From assembly GCA_023150875.1 (NCBI GenBank), contig JAKLKC010000055.1, forward strand, positions 1 through 41,743: DNA of 41,743 nucleotides, in the 5' to 3' direction. Below, in pieces: positions 14,013 through 22,322 of the stretch. The DNA comes from Myxococcota bacterium (GTDB lineage Bacteria > Myxococcota_A > UBA796 > UBA9615 > JAKLKC01). Within the stretch, counting starts at the first letter, position 1, and every line of letters begins with the position of its first letter. A program made the translations under genes and the position numbers. The notes below the pieces were generated by a model that searched no databases, was not told the origin of the DNA, and worked only from the letters and a program-made list of their open reading frames with translations.

Positions 14013-14774
14013 ATGGCCGCGCCCGTGTCCGGCAAGGAGCGCATCGACACCCTGCTGGTCCGCCGGGGCCTGGCCCCCAGCCGGGAGAGGGCGCGGGCCC
14101 TGGTGCTGGCGGGGAAGGTGCTGGTGCGGGACGCGGTGGTGGACAAGCCCGGCACCCTGGTGGACGCCGGGGCGGAGGTGCGCCTGCGGGGCGCGGACCT
14201 GCCCTACGTGGGACGGGGCGGCCTGAAGCTGGAGGGGGCGCTCCAGGACCTGGGGGTGGACCCCCTCGGGCTGGTGTGCCTGGACGTGGGGGCGTCCACG
14301 GGGGGCTTCACCGACTGCCTCCTCCAGCGGGGCGCGGCGAAGGTCTACGCCGTGGACGTGGGCACGGCCCAGCTCGCCTGGAAGCTCCGCGCCGATCCCC
14401 GGGTGGTCAGCCTGGAGCGCACCGACGTCCGGACCCTGGACCCCTCCCGTCTGGCCGAGCCGGTGGACCTGGCGGTGATCGACGCCTCGTTCATCTCGCT
14501 GCGGGGCGTGCTGCCCCCCGCGGCCCGGCTGGTGCGGCCGGGGGGGCGGATCCTGGCCCTGGCCAAACCCCAGTTCGAGGTGGGCCGGGCGAGGGTGGGC
14601 AAGAGGGGGGTGGTGCGGGACGAGGCGGACCGGGAGGCCGCCTTCGCCGCGGTGCGGGAGCTGGCGGAGGGGCTGGATCTCCTGCGGCTGGGGGAGGCGG
14701 ACAGCCGGCTCCCCGGGGCGAAGAGTGGCAACGTGGAGCGATTCTTCCTTCTCGCCCGGCCGAAGAGTCATTAA
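14013..14774 (+). CDS. tlyA: TlyA-family rRNA 2'-O-methyltransferase (hemolysin A)
   Basis: The 253-residue protein combines an N-terminal S4 RNA-binding domain (residues 8-68: RIDTLLVRRGLAPSRERARAL) with an FtsJ/RrmJ-like methyltransferase. SAM motif I is LDVGASTGGFTDCLLQRGA, and VIDASFIS, LALAKPQFEVG and SGNVERFF carry the D, K and E of the K-D-K-E set, with K in GRGGLKLEGAL. TlyA enzymes methylate ribose positions in 16S/23S rRNA and affect capreomycin sensitivity. Length is normal. ATG 14013 is the first plausible start. It ends the xseB-ispA-tlyA cluster. Confidence 0.93.
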   Translation: MAAPVSGKERIDTLLVRRGLAPSRERARALVLAGKVLVRDAVVDKPGTLVDAGAEVRLRGADLPYVGRGGLKLEGALQDLGVDPLGLVCLDVGASTGGFTDCLLQRGAAKVYAVDVGTAQLAWKLRADPRVVSLERTDVRTLDPSRLAEPVDLAVIDASFISLRGVLPPAARLVRPGGRILALAKPQFEVGRARVGKRGVVRDEADREAAFAAVRELAEGLDLLRLGEADSRLPGAKSGNVERFFLLARPKSH

Positions 14775-14838
14775 CCTCCCCCCGAGCGGCGCGAGCCGGA
14801 CCGGGGACGCCGGGACGGGAGAGGGAGCACGGATCACG

Positions 14839-15510
14839 ATGACGGTCGACGTCCAGGAACGCACCGGGTGCGCGAAGGAGAAGCGCAGGAAGCTGATCCT
14901 CGACGCGGCCCGCTGTCTCTTCCTCGATGCGGGGTTCGAGAGCGCCACCATGGACGACGTGGCGGAGCGCTCGCAGCTCTCGAAGGCGACCCTGTACCTG
15001 TACTTCCGCGGCAAGGAGGACCTCTACGTCGCCCTGCTCCACGAGGGACTCGACGTCCTGAACGCGGCGCTGCGGGCGGCGGCGGCGGAGCCCCTGCCCG
15101 CCCCCGAGCGCATCGCCGCCATCGGCAGGGCCTACGGCGCCTTCTACCGGGAGCAGCCCGCCCTCTTCCGCCTCCTGGCCCACTTCCACTCCCGCCAGGA
15201 CCGCCTGAGCGAGGACGTCGCCCAGCCCTGCGAGGAGCGGATGATGGAGGGCATGCGGATCCTCGCGGCGGTGGTGTCCGACGGCCTCCGGGAGGGCACC
15301 CTGACGAGCCCCTACCCGGTGATGGAGGTGGCGGCGATGTTCTGGGCCTCCAGCTATGGCGTCGCCCGCCTGCTCGCCTACAACTCCTGCCACGACTGCC
15401 TGGGCCTGGGGCCGGAGCTGGACACGGTCTCGGCGGTGGAGCACACCTGGGGGCTGCTGCTCCGGGGCCTGCTGGCCGGGGCCGCTCCCGACGGGACCGC
15501 CGCGCCATGA
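14839..15510 (+). CDS. TetR-family transcriptional regulator
   Basis: The 223-residue protein has the TetR DNA-binding domain at residues 14-62: KLILDAARCLFLDAGFESATMDDVAERSQLSKATLYLYFRGKEDLY, with the recognition-helix signature SKATLYLYF. The rest is an all-helical ligand/dimer domain with a Cys pair (NSCHDCLG). The inducer is unknown. The start ATG 14839 is preceded by gagaggga with a long spacer. The stop overlaps the MoxR start (ATGA), so the regulator is co-translated with the ATPase and probably controls this operon. Confidence 0.88.
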   Translation: MTVDVQERTGCAKEKRRKLILDAARCLFLDAGFESATMDDVAERSQLSKATLYLYFRGKEDLYVALLHEGLDVLNAALRAAAAEPLPAPERIAAIGRAYGAFYREQPALFRLLAHFHSRQDRLSEDVAQPCEERMMEGMRILAAVVSDGLREGTLTSPYPVMEVAAMFWASSYGVARLLAYNSCHDCLGLGPELDTVSAVEHTWGLLLRGLLAGAAPDGTAAP

Positions 15511-16349
15511 CGGCGGCCCGCGCCGAGGAGATCGCCCTGCGCCACCGCCTGGTGGGCCGCCGGGCCGAGCTGCGGGCCCTGCTCGCGTGCCTCTCCGCGG
15601 GTCGCCACGTCCTGCTGGAGGGGCCGGTGGGGGTGGGCAAGACGGCCCTGGCCCGGGCGGCGGCGGACGCCCTCGGCAGGGGGGTGCACCGGGTGGACGG
15701 CGACGGGCGCTACAGCGAGGCCCGCCTGGTGGGGCACCACGATCCGCCCCGGGTGCTGCGGGAGGGCTACGTGCCCGACGCCTTCGTGCCCGGCCCCCTG
15801 GCGGCGGCGATGGCGGAGGGGGCGGTCCTGCTGGTGAACGAGCTGAACCGGATGCCCGAGGGGGTGCAGAACGTCCTGCTGCCGGCGATGGACGAGGGCC
15901 TGCTGGTGGTCCCCCGCCACGGCGTGGTGCGGGCCCGGGAGGGCTTCGCGGTGGTGGCCACCCAGAACCCCCGGGAGTTCGTGGGCACGGGCCACCTCTC
16001 GGAGGCGCTGCTGGACCGCTTCGAGCTGCTGCGCCTGGAGTGGCAGGGGGAGGAGGAGGAGCGGCGGATCGTGGTGAAGGAGGCGCGGATCGGCGGGGAC
16101 GACGGGGCGCTGGTGGCGGAGGCGGTGGCGATGGTCCGGGCCACCCGGGGCCACCCGCGGCTGCGCCGGGGCGCCTCGGTGCGCGCCGCCGTGTCCCTGG
16201 TGGAGATCGCCGCGGGCCTGGGGGGCGCCCACGCCCTGGAGGAGGCCGCCCGCATGGCCCTGCCCACCCGGGTGGAGTGGGCCGAGGACGCCGATCCCGA
16301 CCTCGGCGCCCTGCTGCGGGAGCTGCTCCCGTCAAAAAAAAAGCCCTGA
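15507..16349 (+). CDS. MoxR-family AAA+ ATPase
   Basis: The 280-residue protein has Walker A GPVGVGKT (39-46), a Walker B region VLLVNELNRMPEGVQNVLL in which Asn replaces the usual Asp of DE, sensor 1 VVATQNP, and the arginine-finger region LSEALLDRFEL. MoxR ATPases work as chaperones with VWA proteins, often for metal insertion or complex assembly; the RavA-ViaA pair is the model. The VWA gene follows at once. The C-terminus reads SKKKP-stop and is encoded by an A9 run containing A-AAA-AAG, unlike the AAG codons used for Lys elsewhere in the gene; a -1 slip here would fuse it to the VWA protein. Start ATG overlaps the tetR stop. Confidence 0.9.
   Translation: MTAARAEEIALRHRLVGRRAELRALLACLSAGRHVLLEGPVGVGKTALARAAADALGRGVHRVDGDGRYSEARLVGHHDPPRVLREGYVPDAFVPGPLAAAMAEGAVLLVNELNRMPEGVQNVLLPAMDEGLLVVPRHGVVRAREGFAVVATQNPREFVGTGHLSEALLDRFELLRLEWQGEEEERRIVVKEARIGGDDGALVAEAVAMVRATRGHPRLRRGASVRAAVSLVEIAAGLGGAHALEEAARMALPTRVEWAEDADPDLGALLRELLPSKKKP
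16317..16349 (+). promoter_or_regulatory. Candidate -1 frameshift site (A-AAA-AAG) with upstream hairpin/SD-like element
   Basis: The A9 run (16334-16342) followed by G gives the dnaX-type slippery heptamer A-AAA-AAG at 16337-16343, phased with zero-frame codons AAA and AAG. A cggGAG-ctg-CTCccg hairpin (16317-16331) and an SD-like GGGAG (16318-16322, 14 nt before the heptamer) lie just upstream; the zero-frame stop TGA is at 16347. The -1 frame is open into the VWA gene. Direct proof is lacking; A9 could also cause transcriptional slippage or be an assembly indel. Confidence 0.5.
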
Positions 16350-16381
16350 AGCCGACCCTGGACCTGACCCGCTCGGCCACG

Positions 16382-17248
16382 ATGGCCTGGATGGGCCTGG
16401 ACGAGGAGACGGCCCCCTTCGTGGAGAGCCCGGAGTCCGAGCCCACCCCCGCCCGGATCCCGGCGGGCTGGGAGGCGGCCCGGAACTACCATCGCCTCAA
16501 GAAGGTCCTGGGGGACGCCCGGGCCAGGGAGGGAGTGAGGCGGGAGGCGGTGGGGGCGGTGCTGTCCCGGGCCCGGGCCCTCCTGCGCCACGGCGCCAGG
16601 CCCCGGCGGGACGAGGACCTCCCCTGGACGGAGGCCCCGGGGGGCGAGCTGGCGCTGGACGCCCTGGTGGACGAGGGGGTCCCCCCGGGGGCGGTGGAGC
16701 CCGACCAGGTCCGCGTGACGGTGCCGGCGCCCCGGCGCGCCGACGTGGTCCTGATGCTGGACATGAGCCTGTCGATGACCGGCGAGAAGGTGGCCCTGGT
16801 GGCCACGGCGGCGGCGGTGCTCTCCCTCCAGCTCGACCCCGAGGACCTGGCGGTGGTGGCCTTCGACCACCGGGCGACCCTCCTGAAGCGCCTGGGGGAG
16901 CGCGTCCCCCCCGACACCCTGGTGGGCCGCGTCCTGGACGTGCCCGCCGACGGCTTCACCAGCATCGAGGCGGGCATGCGGAAGGGCCTGACGGCCCTCG
17001 CCCGGGGCCGCCTGGGCCGCCGCCGCGGACTCCTGGTCACCGACGGCGTGTACAACGTCGGCTGGGACCCGACCCCCCTGGCCCGCCGCTTTCCCCGGTT
17101 GCACGTCGTCCAGGTGGGCGCCCCCGGGCCGGACCGCGGCCTCTGCGCCCGCCTGGCCAGCAACGGCCGCGGCCCCCTCCACGTCCTCCCGGACTACGAC
17201 TCCCTGCCCTCCCTCGCCCGCCGCCTGGTGGGGGAGCTGTTCCGCTAG
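16382..17248 (+). CDS. VWA-domain protein, partner of MoxR ATPase
   Basis: If translated alone from ATG 16382 it is 288 residues. The C-terminal half is a von Willebrand A domain with a full MIDAS: DMSLSM (DxSxS), the Thr of DGFTSIE and the Asp of LVTDGVYN. The N-terminal half is helical and basic. Such proteins bind Mg2+ and a client and act with the MoxR ATPase encoded just before. No ribosome-binding site is visible before ATG 16382, and the same frame is open upstream through the moxR end (LKPTLDLTRSAT reads as protein-like), so it may be made partly or wholly as a -1 frameshift product of about 580 residues. It ends against a hairpin and a convergent gene. Confidence 0.85.
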   Translation: MAWMGLDEETAPFVESPESEPTPARIPAGWEAARNYHRLKKVLGDARAREGVRREAVGAVLSRARALLRHGARPRRDEDLPWTEAPGGELALDALVDEGVPPGAVEPDQVRVTVPAPRRADVVLMLDMSLSMTGEKVALVATAAAVLSLQLDPEDLAVVAFDHRATLLKRLGERVPPDTLVGRVLDVPADGFTSIEAGMRKGLTALARGRLGRRRGLLVTDGVYNVGWDPTPLARRFPRLHVVQVGAPGPDRGLCARLASNGRGPLHVLPDYDSLPSLARRLVGELFR

Positions 17249-17278: not shown

Positions 17279-19060
17279 CTACCCCCCGCCCGGGGGAGGC
17301 CCTCCGCCCCCCGCCGCGCCCTTGGGGACCTCGATCCGCTCGAGGTACACGGCGAAGGACGGCCGCTCCACCCCCACGATCAGGGGCCAGTCGGGGGACC
17401 GCAGGAGCCGGTACTGGCCTTCGCCGTGCTTGCCCTTCGCGACCACCACCGGCAGGTCCACCCGCCTGCGCCCGGCGGCGTCGTCCAGGGACACCGAGAA
17501 GTAGGAGCGCCCCTTGGGGCTGATGGAGTCGGGACGGAGCGCCGAGGCGTCGTCGAGCCCGATCCCGCGGCCGGCGAGGAGCTCCCTCATCACTCCGCGC
17601 CCGAGCCACACCGAGGTCGCCCCCACCGTCTCCACTTCGTCCGGTGGGGCGTCCCCGAAGAAGTCGGAGTGGGACTGGGACTGGGCGAAGACCTCTGCGG
17701 GTACGCGCCGCCTCCCCGACCGGCCGTCCTCGGCGGCCCACGCGAACGTGATCCCCCCTCCGCCCACGTCCTCGATGGTGACCACGAAGTCCTGGAGCGA
17801 CATCTCCCTCCACAGGGTCGCGCCGGGGCGGCGGCCCTCGTACTGCACCAGGGCGTAGTGCAGCCGGGTGCCGGCGGCCATCCACGGGACGTCGGCCAGG
17901 GGAGGCGGCGCCGGGGGCGCGCCCGCGGCGCCCGCGAAGGGGACGACCTCCACCCTCGGCGCCGGTCCGTCCAGCCGCAGCACGACGACGGACCGGGCCG
18001 CCGCGCTCACCCCCGCCGACGCCGGGGCCCCGGCGAACGTCTCCTCGGCGAGGGTGGAGCCGTCGGTGGACGAGAGCACCACGAAGCCTTCCCGGTTGGC
18101 GAAGACGTCGTTCACCCCCTCGACGTCCATGGCCGTCGGCGGCGCGGCGCCCGGCCAGGGCCGCTCCCAGAGCACCGTCAGGTCCTCGGACCGGAGGGCT
18201 CCGATCCGCACCTTCCCGCCCGCGTCGGTCGAGAAGAACAGCAGGTTGCGGGGGGAAGGCATGGCGGGGACCATCCGGGGCACCGGGGCGATCCACAGGC
18301 GGTCCCCGGTGAGGGCGTCCACGCCGGACATCCACGCCCTGTGGGGCCTCACCAGCACGGCCCCCCCCGTCTGGACGGCCGTGAACGCCGCGGGATCCCC
18401 GGCCGTCGTCCACAGCACGCCGGGCAACTCGCTCCGGGCTTCGAGCCCCGCGGCGTCGTGGGCCGCGATCCCCGGGATCCCCTGGCCGCTCCTCTCGCCG
18501 ACACCGATCACCGTCCGCTCCCCCACCGCCTGCGCCGTCACCAGCGAAGCCGCGCCCAGGGGCAGGTCCCCCCGAGGTGCCCCGGTCCCAGCGTCGAAGA
18601 CCCGCAGGCGGCCGTCCGCCGCCGAGGCGTACACGCGCCCCCCCGCCAGGACGACGACGCCCAGGGGCGCGTCGACCTCCCTCCTCCACACCTCCTTCCC
18701 GTCCCGCGCGTCGATGGCGGCCAGGACCCGCCCGGCCCCGACGAGGGCCAGGGATCCGTAATGGTCGTACCAGAACGGACCGTGGAAGTCCGGCCCGTCC
18801 CTCCTCCGCTGCCAGGCGACGCTCCCGTCGGACCTCACCCCCGCCCACATCGCCCCCGTGCCCTCGGCGGACTCCGGCCACGCCAGCACGTGGACGTCGC
18901 CCGCGGCGATGAGCGCCGGCGGGGCCAGGCCCGGGAACACCTTCACGACGAGGTCCACGGGCAGGCTCGCCGCCCGGACCTCGCCGCCGGCGAGGACCCC
19001 GACGACGAGCGCCACCGCCGCGAACCCGATCCCCCGCGTCAACCGGCCCCGCTTCCCCAT
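17279..19060 (-). CDS. Secreted PQQ-like beta-propeller protein
   Basis: The 593-residue protein starts with a Sec signal peptide (cleavage likely after GGEVRA, near residue 30). Residues about 60-350 contain repeated PQQ/WD-like blades with the DxxTG-W or DARDGKEVW pattern (DARDGKEVWRREV, DAGTGAPRGDL, DALTGDRLWIAPV, SSTDGSTLAEE). The last 200 residues form a different beta-rich domain (GTRLHYALVQYEG to AVYLERIEVP) and end in a Gly/Pro-rich tail. Propellers of this sort scaffold envelope complexes or bind quinone cofactors; no catalytic residues are evident. ATG 19060 has gagga 6-7 nt upstream. It is divergent from the nucleotidase-barrel gene. Confidence 0.72.
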   Translation of the reverse strand: MGKRGRLTRGIGFAAVALVVGVLAGGEVRAASLPVDLVVKVFPGLAPPALIAAGDVHVLAWPESAEGTGAMWAGVRSDGSVAWQRRRDGPDFHGPFWYDHYGSLALVGAGRVLAAIDARDGKEVWRREVDAPLGVVVLAGGRVYASAADGRLRVFDAGTGAPRGDLPLGAASLVTAQAVGERTVIGVGERSGQGIPGIAAHDAAGLEARSELPGVLWTTAGDPAAFTAVQTGGAVLVRPHRAWMSGVDALTGDRLWIAPVPRMVPAMPSPRNLLFFSTDAGGKVRIGALRSEDLTVLWERPWPGAAPPTAMDVEGVNDVFANREGFVVLSSTDGSTLAEETFAGAPASAGVSAAARSVVVLRLDGPAPRVEVVPFAGAAGAPPAPPPLADVPWMAAGTRLHYALVQYEGRRPGATLWREMSLQDFVVTIEDVGGGGITFAWAAEDGRSGRRRVPAEVFAQSQSHSDFFGDAPPDEVETVGATSVWLGRGVMRELLAGRGIGLDDASALRPDSISPKGRSYFSVSLDDAAGRRRVDLPVVVAKGKHGEGQYRLLRSPDWPLIVGVERPSFAVYLERIEVPKGAAGGGGPPPGGG

Positions 19061-19142
19061 GGAGATCTCCTCGTCGCCCCGCGCGCCGACGGGGCGGGCG
19101 CCCGACCCCGCCGATGACGAGCGCCCGGGCGTCGTGTCGGCC

Positions 19143-19182
19143 ATTGTAGGAGGACTTCGCGGGCACGTCCTCCAGGTAGAAT
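19143..19182. promoter_or_regulatory. Back-to-back -10 boxes around an operator-like inverted repeat
   Basis: A minus-strand TACAAT (19143-19148) and a plus-strand TAGAAT (19177-19182) each match the -10 consensus at 5 of 6 positions. Between them ggaggac (19149-19155) and gtcctcc (19167-19173) form a perfect 7-bp inverted repeat with an 11-bp spacer, covering the -35 positions of both. The -35 hexamers are poor, which fits activator control. The two divergent genes would be co-regulated. Confidence 0.45.
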
Positions 19183-19244
19183 GCCCCCGCCCGTCACGGG
19201 GCGACCTCGCCGGTGGCCGGTCCGCGCGCGGGGATTGAGGAACG

Positions 19245-22200
19245 ATGCCCCGCCCCCCACTGCCCCCCCTCCGCCTCGCCGTCGCCGCCCTGCTGGCCGC
19301 GGCGCTCCCGCTGGCGCCCGCCGGGGACGTGGCGGCCGAAGACGTCGCGGACGCCGGCGCCGGGCAGCCGCCGCCCGGCGACGCCTCGCCCCCCGCCGCC
19401 CAGGGGACCCTCGTCCCCGCGGCGGGCTCCCCCGGGAGGAGGCTCGTCCGCATCGTGTACGACGGCGAGACCGGGGGGATCTCCTCGGGGCTGGCGGACC
19501 TCTCCGGCGCGGGGCTGCTCTACCGGGCCGCGAAGGAGGGGGGGGCCACCGTGGAGGCGCACCAGGCCACCCTGGGGGCCCTCTATCGAGAGGGGCGCTG
19601 GCTCTGGGCCGCGGGGGAGGCCACCCTCGAAGGGGCCACGTCCTTCCTCGCCGGCCCGGCCCTCGCCCCCGCGTCGCCCCCCGTCTCCGTCCCCATCCTC
19701 GACGGGGTGGACGGGGTCCTGCTCGCCCTCCCCACCGCGCCGGGCGCCCCTCCCCCGGATCCCGGCGCCCATCCGCTGTTCGTGGCGGGGCGAGGCGAGG
19801 GTCGCGAGGCCCGTTCCGGCACCCTCGCGCTGTGGCGCGCCGGGGACGGGAGGGAGGCCTGGGTGCTGGACACCCGCGGTGGGGACGGCCGCGCGGCCCT
19901 GGAGCCCGATCCCAACGCCTGGGAGGTGCGGGAGCGTGTCAGCCTCGGCGCGCGGTTCGCCACCGGTCCCGAGGACCTCGTCCTGCTGGCCAAGCGCGTG
20001 GGCGAGGGGACGCGGCGCAAGGCCGCCGTCCAGCGGGAGCTCGACGCCGTCCCGGAGGTCCCGGCCCTGTACGTGTCCGCGGGGGGCGCCGTGGAAGGGG
20101 CCTCGTTCCTGCGGGACCACGCCACGTCCCTGCACCGGCCGTACTCCTGGGAGGGCTATGGCGAGGCGCGCCTGCGCTTCCTCGCGCCCTCCCTCGCCGA
20201 GCTGGTCCCCGGCGTCGCCGCCCTGGCGGCCGAGTCCGCGGCGGCGGGCGTCGAGCTGCTGTCGTGCAACCTCGTGGATCCCCAGGGGAACCCCGTCTTC
20301 GGCACCACCGCCACGGTCGAGCTGGACGGCGTGAAGGTCGCCTTCGCCGGCCTCACCGATCCCTCCGTCTGGCCCCTCCTGGGCCCCGAGGTGAGGGCCC
20401 AGGTCGCCGTGGCCGAGCCCCTGCCCGCGCTGGAGCGATGCCTCGATGGGGTGGAGGCCGACCTCGTGGTGCTCCTCGCCACCCTGGCCCACGACACCCT
20501 CGCCGAGGTCGCCGGCCACGTCACCGGGGTCGACGCCGTGCTGGGGGACTTCTCGTCCGGCCTCGCCTCCGGGCGCGTCGAGGAGATCGTCGCCGCCCCC
20601 GAGGTCCCGGGCGGCCTCCCCCGGGACCGGCGGCGCCCCCTGCTGATCTCCCGCTCGTCGGGGGCCACCTACGGCGTGCTCACCGCCTCCATCGGACCGT
20701 ACAACACATTGGAATCATTGGAGAACCGCATCGTCACCCTGCCCCAGGAGCTGCCCCCGGACGACGGCCTCCTCCGGCGGGTCATGGCCATCCGCCAGCA
20801 GGTGTACCGCCAGTCCGAGGACGTGCTGATCCCCGATCTCGCCTCCCTCCCCGGTGGGGCCGCCGCCGGGGGCGCCGCGGCCGAGAGGCTGGACTACCGC
20901 CGCTGGCTCAACCTCGCCGGGAACCTCGTGCGGCGGAGCACCCAGGCCGACGTCGTGATGCTCCCTCCCCTTCCCTGGCCCTTCGACCTCTCCGGCCCCA
21001 CAAGGGAGATCCAGGCCCTGGCCTCCCTCGCCGTCCCCGATCGCCTGGTCTCCGTCCACGTCCGGGGCGACCTGCTGCGCCGCCTGCTCCTGCTGGCGTG
21101 GAGCGACGAGGGGACCCCGGACCGGGACTCCGAGTTCGGCGCCGACCTCCGCACCCGGGCCGGGCGGGCCGCCCCCATGGTCGCGGGCGCCGAGATCGGG
21201 GCGCGGGACATCGCCGCGTGGAAGGTGCGGGGCGGCGCCATCGCCGACGCCGAGACCTACCACGTCGTGCTCACCGACCGGATCGCCACCCGCCCCGACT
21301 TCGCCCGGATCCTGAGCGGCTCCAGGCTGCGAAGCCGGTTCCACCGGGCCCCGGGCGGCAACCACCTGCCCGCCCTCCTGGGCGGACGGGAGCTGGCCCT
21401 GAGGGACGTGGTGTTCCAGGGTCTCGCCTCGCTGCGGGAGCGGCACCCCGACTTCTCGCCCCGCTACGCCCGCCAGGTGCGCGCCCTCCTGCCCGGGTAC
21501 GGCGGCCAGGCGGAGCCCGCGGTGGTCGCCCGCCTGGACACCGCCGCCTTCCGCCTGCTGTGGAACCGTTCCTACGTGCCCGATCCCGACGCCTACGCCC
21601 AGGTCCAGGAGCCCCGGGCGAGCGCCGTCAACTCCTTCGACGTCGGCTGGAACGTCCTGGGGCGCGTGGGCGTCGAGACCCCCCGCGCCAACTGGATGAA
21701 TGTCCTGCTGGCCACCTACACCCTCTCCCGCATCGAGGGGGCGGAGCCCGCCGAGACCCAGGACGACCTGGCCCTCACCACCGAGCTCCAGGTCAAGCCC
21801 GCCGACGTCCCCGTGGGCAAGGGCGTGTCGCTGTGGCCGGTGGTGAACTTCACCTACGACTCCGTCTTCGACCTGCTGGAGAACGACGAGCACCCCCAGC
21901 GGGTCCTCCGGGAGGGGGTGGGGCTGCTGGTGCAGAAGCTCTGGAAGGCCCTCCCCAGCCTCAGGATCGCGGCCTTCGCCGAGCAGGACCTCTCCGTTTG
22001 GGGGGATCCCGCCTGGCAGGCGGGCCTCTCCGCGGGGCTGGTCCACGAGTGGCCGATCAAGCCGGTGAAGTGGCGCACCGACGTCGGCTTCTTCTACTGG
22101 TTCCCGGTCCCCAGCCAGGACCGCGCCGACGACCTGTCCTACAGCCTGAACGTGAAGTCGACCATCGCGGTGCCCATCGCCGGGTCCCTCGCCCTGTCCA

Positions 22201-22322
22201 CCTGGGCGGACGCGCTGCTCTTCCAACGCAAGGGCCTGGGGGAGGACCCGCCTCCCCCCGGGCTGTCCCTCATCGTCGGGGTGGACATCGGGTTCTCGGG
22301 GAGCCTGAGGGCCCGGTTCTGA
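19245..22322 (+). CDS. 5'-nucleotidase-like pseudoenzyme fused to C-terminal beta-barrel
   Basis: The 1025-residue protein has a signal peptide (about 1-31). Residues 200-450 resemble the end of a metallophosphoesterase domain of UshA type (VELLSCNLVDPQGNPVFGT, VKVAFAGLTDPS), but the metal site GGHTH is replaced by GDFSS near residue 435 and no DxH or NHE motif was found. Residues 560-690 resemble the 5'-nucleotidase C-terminal domain (LVSVHVRGDLLRRLL, YHVVLTDRIA). From about 793 to the end is an antiparallel beta pattern ending in ARF, the terminal Phe typical of outer-membrane barrels. The likely role is a surface nucleotide-binding or structural protein; activity is doubtful. gagga lies 4 nt before the ATG. 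Confidence 0.68.
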   Translation: MPRPPLPPLRLAVAALLAAALPLAPAGDVAAEDVADAGAGQPPPGDASPPAAQGTLVPAAGSPGRRLVRIVYDGETGGISSGLADLSGAGLLYRAAKEGGATVEAHQATLGALYREGRWLWAAGEATLEGATSFLAGPALAPASPPVSVPILDGVDGVLLALPTAPGAPPPDPGAHPLFVAGRGEGREARSGTLALWRAGDGREAWVLDTRGGDGRAALEPDPNAWEVRERVSLGARFATGPEDLVLLAKRVGEGTRRKAAVQRELDAVPEVPALYVSAGGAVEGASFLRDHATSLHRPYSWEGYGEARLRFLAPSLAELVPGVAALAAESAAAGVELLSCNLVDPQGNPVFGTTATVELDGVKVAFAGLTDPSVWPLLGPEVRAQVAVAEPLPALERCLDGVEADLVVLLATLAHDTLAEVAGHVTGVDAVLGDFSSGLASGRVEEIVAAPEVPGGLPRDRRRPLLISRSSGATYGVLTASIGPYNTLESLENRIVTLPQELPPDDGLLRRVMAIRQQVYRQSEDVLIPDLASLPGGAAAGGAAAERLDYRRWLNLAGNLVRRSTQADVVMLPPLPWPFDLSGPTREIQALASLAVPDRLVSVHVRGDLLRRLLLLAWSDEGTPDRDSEFGADLRTRAGRAAPMVAGAEIGARDIAAWKVRGGAIADAETYHVVLTDRIATRPDFARILSGSRLRSRFHRAPGGNHLPALLGGRELALRDVVFQGLASLRERHPDFSPRYARQVRALLPGYGGQAEPAVVARLDTAAFRLLWNRSYVPDPDAYAQVQEPRASAVNSFDVGWNVLGRVGVETPRANWMNVLLATYTLSRIEGAEPAETQDDLALTTELQVKPADVPVGKGVSLWPVVNFTYDSVFDLLENDEHPQRVLREGVGLLVQKLWKALPSLRIAAFAEQDLSVWGDPAWQAGLSAGLVHEWPIKPVKWRTDVGFFYWFPVPSQDRADDLSYSLNVKSTIAVPIAGSLALSTWADALLFQRKGLGEDPPPPGLSLIVGVDIGFSGSLRARF

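Follow-up and report, generated by a model that had tools for sequence, protein, structure and literature searches.

In a genome of the Myxococcota, one gene very probably yields two proteins, an AAA+ ATPase and an AAA+-VWA fusion, by a conserved, programmed transition to the -1 frame, with the slip frequency setting the ratio between them. The gene (15507-17248 on the forward strand) lies in a stretch of 41,743 nucleotides, the contig JAKLKC010000055.1 of a Myxococcota bacterium (assembly GCA_023150875.1, own genome 6.92 Mb), which is called the window in the following. In 31 of 31 relatives with a readable junction, a run of adenines occupies this very position and stands in the identical frame relation to the VWA domain, and it is this consistency that makes it very probable that both parts of a ring-shaped chaperone are derived from one gene.

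Translation in the zero frame would end 4 nt past the A-run and give the free AAA+ ATPase, and a fraction would change to the -1 frame at the A-run, continuing through a flexible linker into the VWA domain to give the AAA+-VWA protein. I infer from this arrangement the production of the fusion and its amount, and predict that the free AAA+ and the AAA+-VWA proteins would assemble as a mixed ring with VWA domains on few of its subunits. This would most likely be a ring with one VWA subunit, similar to NorQ6:NorD1, and comparable to midasin with its single VWA for six AAA modules. With few VWA-bearing subunits per ring, the frequency of slipping would set the AAA+ to AAA+-VWA ratio.

The gene and its probable slip site

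The zero-frame product, an AAA+ ATPase of the NorQ/CbbQ/MoxR type (15507-16349, forward strand), starts with the ATG at 15507 and has 280 residues, ending in PSKKKP*. Its start overlaps by 4 nt (ATGA) with the stop of an open reading frame for a TetR-family regulator (14725-15510, forward strand; Pfam TetR_N, E 2.4e-15), the start of which is perhaps downstream of 14725; given this overlap, the regulator and the AAA+ gene probably share an operon. On the other side, a gene for a PQQ/BamB-like repeat protein (17279-19453, reverse strand) is convergent with the frameshifted gene, and an open reading frame of 1025 amino acids (19245-22322, forward strand) is without a Pfam match at E 0.001.

The junction in the window reads CTG CTC CCG TCA AAA AAA AAG CCC TGA, with the A9 run, the putative slip site, at 16334-16342 and the zero-frame stop TGA at 16347-16349 (both forward strand). 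The initial annotation had pointed to a heptamer A_AAA_AAG in the right phase close to this TGA, and it is indeed located at 16337-16343 (forward strand), overlapping with a second in-phase heptamer, A_AAA_AAA, at 16334-16340. Both would result in the identical -1 product of 580 amino acids (...SKKK-ALKPTLDLTRSAT...). As the genome encodes both tRNA-Lys(CUU) and tRNA-Lys(UUU), and the former may read AAG and reduce slipping at A_AAA_AAG, A_AAA_AAA would be the likelier heptamer of the two. The -1 frame is entered at GCC 16343 and continues without a stop through the linker and the VWA domain to 17248, in agreement with the fusion of about 580 residues that had been proposed. This extension (16343-17248, forward strand) counts 301 amino acids, consisting of the linker (ALKPTLDLTRSAT...) and a VWA domain with the MIDAS residues DMSLS...T...D; the full products of the relatives range from 557 to 586 amino acids.

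The run was initially described as an oddity at the end of a MoxR ATPase in a genome poor in A-runs, and the counts bear this out. A9 runs occur twice in the 6.92 Mb of the own genome, both strands included, the next longest A-run in the window is six, and none of the eight other lysines in the AAA+ and VWA ORFs is encoded by AAA. The other A9 run of the genome (C92:175472-175480, locus L077) encodes an in-frame KKK within the long uninterrupted ORF of an ATPase/TPR-like regulator, and is itself a possible spot of unprogrammed or programmed slippage. In 124,874 bases of related loci, no further runs of A7 or longer were found on either strand.

Junctions in related genomes

A search with the VWA protein gave 26 good relatives from the same class (46-51% identity); further members of the class were added later, as were two relatives in other families of the phylum, outside the class (34-36% identity), and a scan of genome contigs gave one relative, at the same locus as L010. 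The gene is present in 32 of 71 genomes of the class and in 34 of 379 sampled genomes of the phylum, where the class matches are counted again and few candidates per genome were scored; the profile searches covered the Myxococcota. Junctions could be read in 31 relatives (VWA identities of 34-51%) and the window, i.e. in 32 separate genomes. These are draft assemblies split into many contigs, one or more of them a metagenome bin, with many of the rows being kin.

In all 32 junctions, the AAA+ ORF terminates at a run of A7, A9 or A10 and the VWA domain follows in the -1 frame, with a heptamer of the X_XXY_YYZ type in the zero-frame phase at the ORF overlap (32/32). An A8 run is present at none of the 32. 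The initial annotation had suggested comparing the junction among related genomes; every readable case has the run and the -1 relation, and neither an in-frame fusion nor two separate genes with a conserved start were found among the readable junctions of the 31 relatives. Stops in the -1 frame were counted in three loci, L015, L019 and L070, and from the printed sequence each looks like the codon upstream of the slip that leads into the A-run, which would leave no independent upstream entry to the -1 frame in these loci. In L018, a stop is present close to the start of the AAA+ match, and I place it before the true start of the gene.

The phase of the run is constrained as well. All 16 A7 runs are found in the phase xxA_AAA_AAA, the one phase that makes A_AAA_AAA. 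The residue before AAA AAA in these genes varies between Ala, Pro, Arg and Ser (GCA/CCA/CGA/TCA) with a codon that always ends with A; in these genes, codons ending with A are a 2-6% choice for those residues, and 8% of the lysine codons are AAA, so that the nominal product for these choices amounts to about 10^-56, kinship ignored. The A9 and A10 runs are spread over phases 0, 1 and 2; nine adenines in a row contain an in-phase heptamer in whichever phase they stand, so that no phase is forbidden, and each of these runs retains one. Judged from its presence in all 32 junctions, the lack of other A7+ runs in these loci and the codon choices, the slip site is kept beyond chance and beyond what the protein would demand.

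Ribosomal or transcriptional slippage

In nearly all A7 sites, a stable stem is predicted 4-7 nt past the heptamer when the 60 bases downstream are folded. Compared to control positions of the same genes, the median percentile of the downstream fold is about 0.12 for the A7 sites versus about 0.77 for the A9/A10 sites (Mann-Whitney p 7e-6, kinship ignored). The stem also covaries: in the nine A7 sequences that can be aligned, 92% of the cells are paired and 5 of the 11 pairs have changed on both sides, a result equalled by none of 500 shuffles and approached nowhere by slid registers. L026 is a weak member among the A7 hairpins, and L073 is an A9 site with some structure. The A9 site of the window has no strong hairpin downstream of its heptamer (z -0.33), as was remarked initially, and such a hairpin is likewise absent from almost every A9/A10 site. 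A search against Rfam gave no match. On the basis of A_AAA_AAA and the covarying hairpin, the A7 relatives are taken to use ribosomal -1 frameshifting.

The elements upstream are less telling. The GGGAG and the hairpin that the initial annotation had noticed before the run are present, but the role of stimulators similar to those of dnaX did not hold up: the SD-like GGGAG ranks at the 31st percentile of the control positions in this gene of 76% GC and the hairpin, considered as a slippage signal, at the 60th, and neither is conserved. Across the set, SD-like elements upstream are not enriched either (median percentile about 0.53 in both the A7 and the A9+ groups). A hairpin that abuts the run on its upstream side is a stimulator of transcriptional slippage, and such hairpins are not enriched in the A9+ sites versus elsewhere.

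For the A9/A10 genes, including that in the window, RNA polymerase could add one A in some of the transcripts (A10 in the window), from which normal translation would yield the fusion, with the A7 genes being ribosomal. I would give this a little less than an even chance, and it concerns the mechanism only, as the same two products would result. Many bacterial genomes avoid slippage-prone runs at a length of nine, and the A9 run in dnaX of Thermus is used in this manner, as opposed to the ribosomal frameshifting in dnaX of E. coli (PMC1088944). The A9/A10 runs lack the downstream hairpin of the A7 type, they occur in all three phases, and A8 is missing from the series, all of which is in line with slipping of the polymerase. 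However, every A9/A10 run also contains an in-phase ribosomal heptamer, so that the phase cannot discriminate between the two mechanisms, and both the lack of enriched upstream hairpins and the few independent switches argue against it. In a tree of the proteins from which the columns of the junction had been left out, the run class (A7 versus A9+) needs four changes, and two independent switches are located on well-supported branches. With so few switches, a connection of the hairpin with the length of the run is suggested rather than proven, and a trade-off between the two is a good lead, not an established rule.

At the A9 run of the window, ribosomal -1 slippage by tRNA-Lys(UUU), transcriptional insertion of one A, or both are possible. 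More tentatively, and with some doubt on my part, evolution could have exchanged the level of decoding within this single family of a single phylum, with slipping by the ribosome at A7 with a hairpin and by RNA polymerase at A9/A10 without one, as interchangeable means to set the same ratio. These genes offer a natural set, A7 with and A9 without hairpin, for probing the use of ribosomal versus transcriptional slippage.

Alternatives to a programmed frame transition

Alternatively, the VWA protein may be made from an internal codon of its own by reinitiation or coupling, in which case there are two separate genes and the A-run is incidental. NorQ and NorD, as well as other MoxR/VWA partners, are encoded apart, and the ATG in the window lies 32 nt past the stop codon. 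However, this first in-frame ATG past the slip (16382-16384, forward strand) has a weak SD score of -1.7 kcal/mol, consistent with the earlier remark that it has no ribosome site, and its position is not conserved. Across the set, the first in-frame start is found anywhere between 20 and 260 nt past the run, in positions and with SDs that are not conserved and with mostly poor SD scores, and L025 has no in-frame start before 260 nt. Moreover, in the alignment of the VWA/-1 region of the window with 25 relatives, the motif KPTLNLTxSAT directly follows the slip, ahead of any start codon, and it is conserved in several families. Free genes would also be expected to vary in their frame, which is -1 in 32 of 32 cases. 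I consider separate genes very unlikely, and a programmed -1 transition within one gene the better reading.

Even less credible is a phase-variable on/off switch by replication slippage, as in a contingency locus: A9/A10 runs are mutable, but the in-frame state is observed in no genome, and A7 with a hairpin serves half of the family. An indel in the A-run from assembly or sequencing, with an in-frame fusion as the real gene, had been raised at the outset and homopolymers are prone to such errors, yet it is excluded for the family because 32 separate genomes with runs of A7, A9 and A10 share a single frame relation, and for the window it is extremely unlikely.

Identity of the protein and gene neighbourhood

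The AAA+ half matches AAA_5 (74 bits) and AAA_3 (63 bits) in Pfam. Its AlphaFold2 model (pLDDT 90.6) has NorQ (TM 0.81-0.83 by target) and CbbQ2 as the best fold matches, with BchI far weaker, and its profile ranks midasin first among the PDB sequences, with a score that sums several AAA modules, followed by NorQ, MoxR, CobS and CbbQ. The VWA half matches Pfam VWA_2 (E 4.6e-6), and its model (pLDDT 85) matches NorD over most of the length, generic VWA domains and the MIDAS domain of midasin. Models and sequence point to a MoxR/NorQ-type AAA+ protein nearest to NorQ/CbbQ, with a NorD-similar VWA domain bearing MIDAS residues. I also considered membership of the frameshifted chelatase genes, fs-chlD, and rejected it: TIGR02442 scores 48 bits versus a cut-off of 779 bits, Pfam Mg_chelatase matches part of its model with about 21 bits, and with BchI far below NorQ as a fold match, the kinship to ChlI/ChlD is of the general AAA+ kind.

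The gene neighbourhood is partly informative as a clue to function. In L113, L119 and L123, a GMC oxidoreductase gene and a gluconate 2-dehydrogenase subunit-3-like gene are located directly upstream of the AAA+ gene on the same strand, and in L112, L115, L117 and L122 a gene for a Bax1-I membrane protein takes that place, also on the same strand. Known pairs of MoxR and VWA proteins, such as NorQD, mature oxidoreductases, and by this analogy my guess for genomes with the upstream GMC oxidoreductase, such as L113, L119 and L123, is that an oxidoreductase could be the client of the chaperone.

Comparison with known systems

The literature on myxobacterial frameshifting, and on MoxR or VWA proteins with ribosomal frameshifting, contained nothing relevant, with subscription journals being sparsely covered. 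I found no earlier description of a frameshifted NorQ-type AAA+-VWA gene, and a report elsewhere is possible. Gene callers will split such a gene in two.

NorQ-NorD and CbbQ-CbbO similarly combine an AAA+ ring with a VWA partner, and the two halves of the present protein have NorQ and NorD among their best fold matches; those systems are, however, two separate genes, whereas here one gene and a frameshift would give a covalent AAA+-VWA protein. In NorQD, there is one NorD per NorQ hexamer (PMC9976466), and a finger of the VWA protein enters the pore (PMC9976466, PMC13036017). Midasin/Rea1, the best AAA+ profile match in the PDB, has AAA+ modules and a VWA domain in one chain, but this is a long eukaryotic chain with a single VWA for its six AAA modules, in contrast to the single subunits and the frameshift proposed here. 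In dnaX, too, slipping on an A-run (ribosomal in E. coli, transcriptional in Thermus) gives two lengths of an AAA+ subunit; the shift in E. coli shortens the product, whereas the present one would lengthen it, and a conserved SD stimulator is not found here.

The closest known case is fs-chlD, in which the small and medium subunits of Mg/Co-chelatase are made from one gene (PMC3711429, PMC9227772) and which is known in several phyla (PMC9227772); frameshifting on the A-run of chlD-type genes reached 10-63% when measured in E. coli (PMC3711429, PMC5009743). As in the present gene, the zero frame encodes an AAA+ protein and a -1 shift on A_AAA_AAR an AAA+-VWA protein, so that one gene would provide two ring subunits. 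A downstream structure is present in many cases of fs-chlD, as it is in the A7 relatives of the present gene. The AAA+ family is different, the present gene being NorQ/CbbQ/midasin-like, and it is not a member of fs-chlD, although it appears to work alike. It would be a second AAA+/VWA machine, from an AAA+ family other than the chelatases, that makes both parts of its ring by a frameshift, which suggests that selection acts to maintain the proportion of subunits with a VWA domain to those without.
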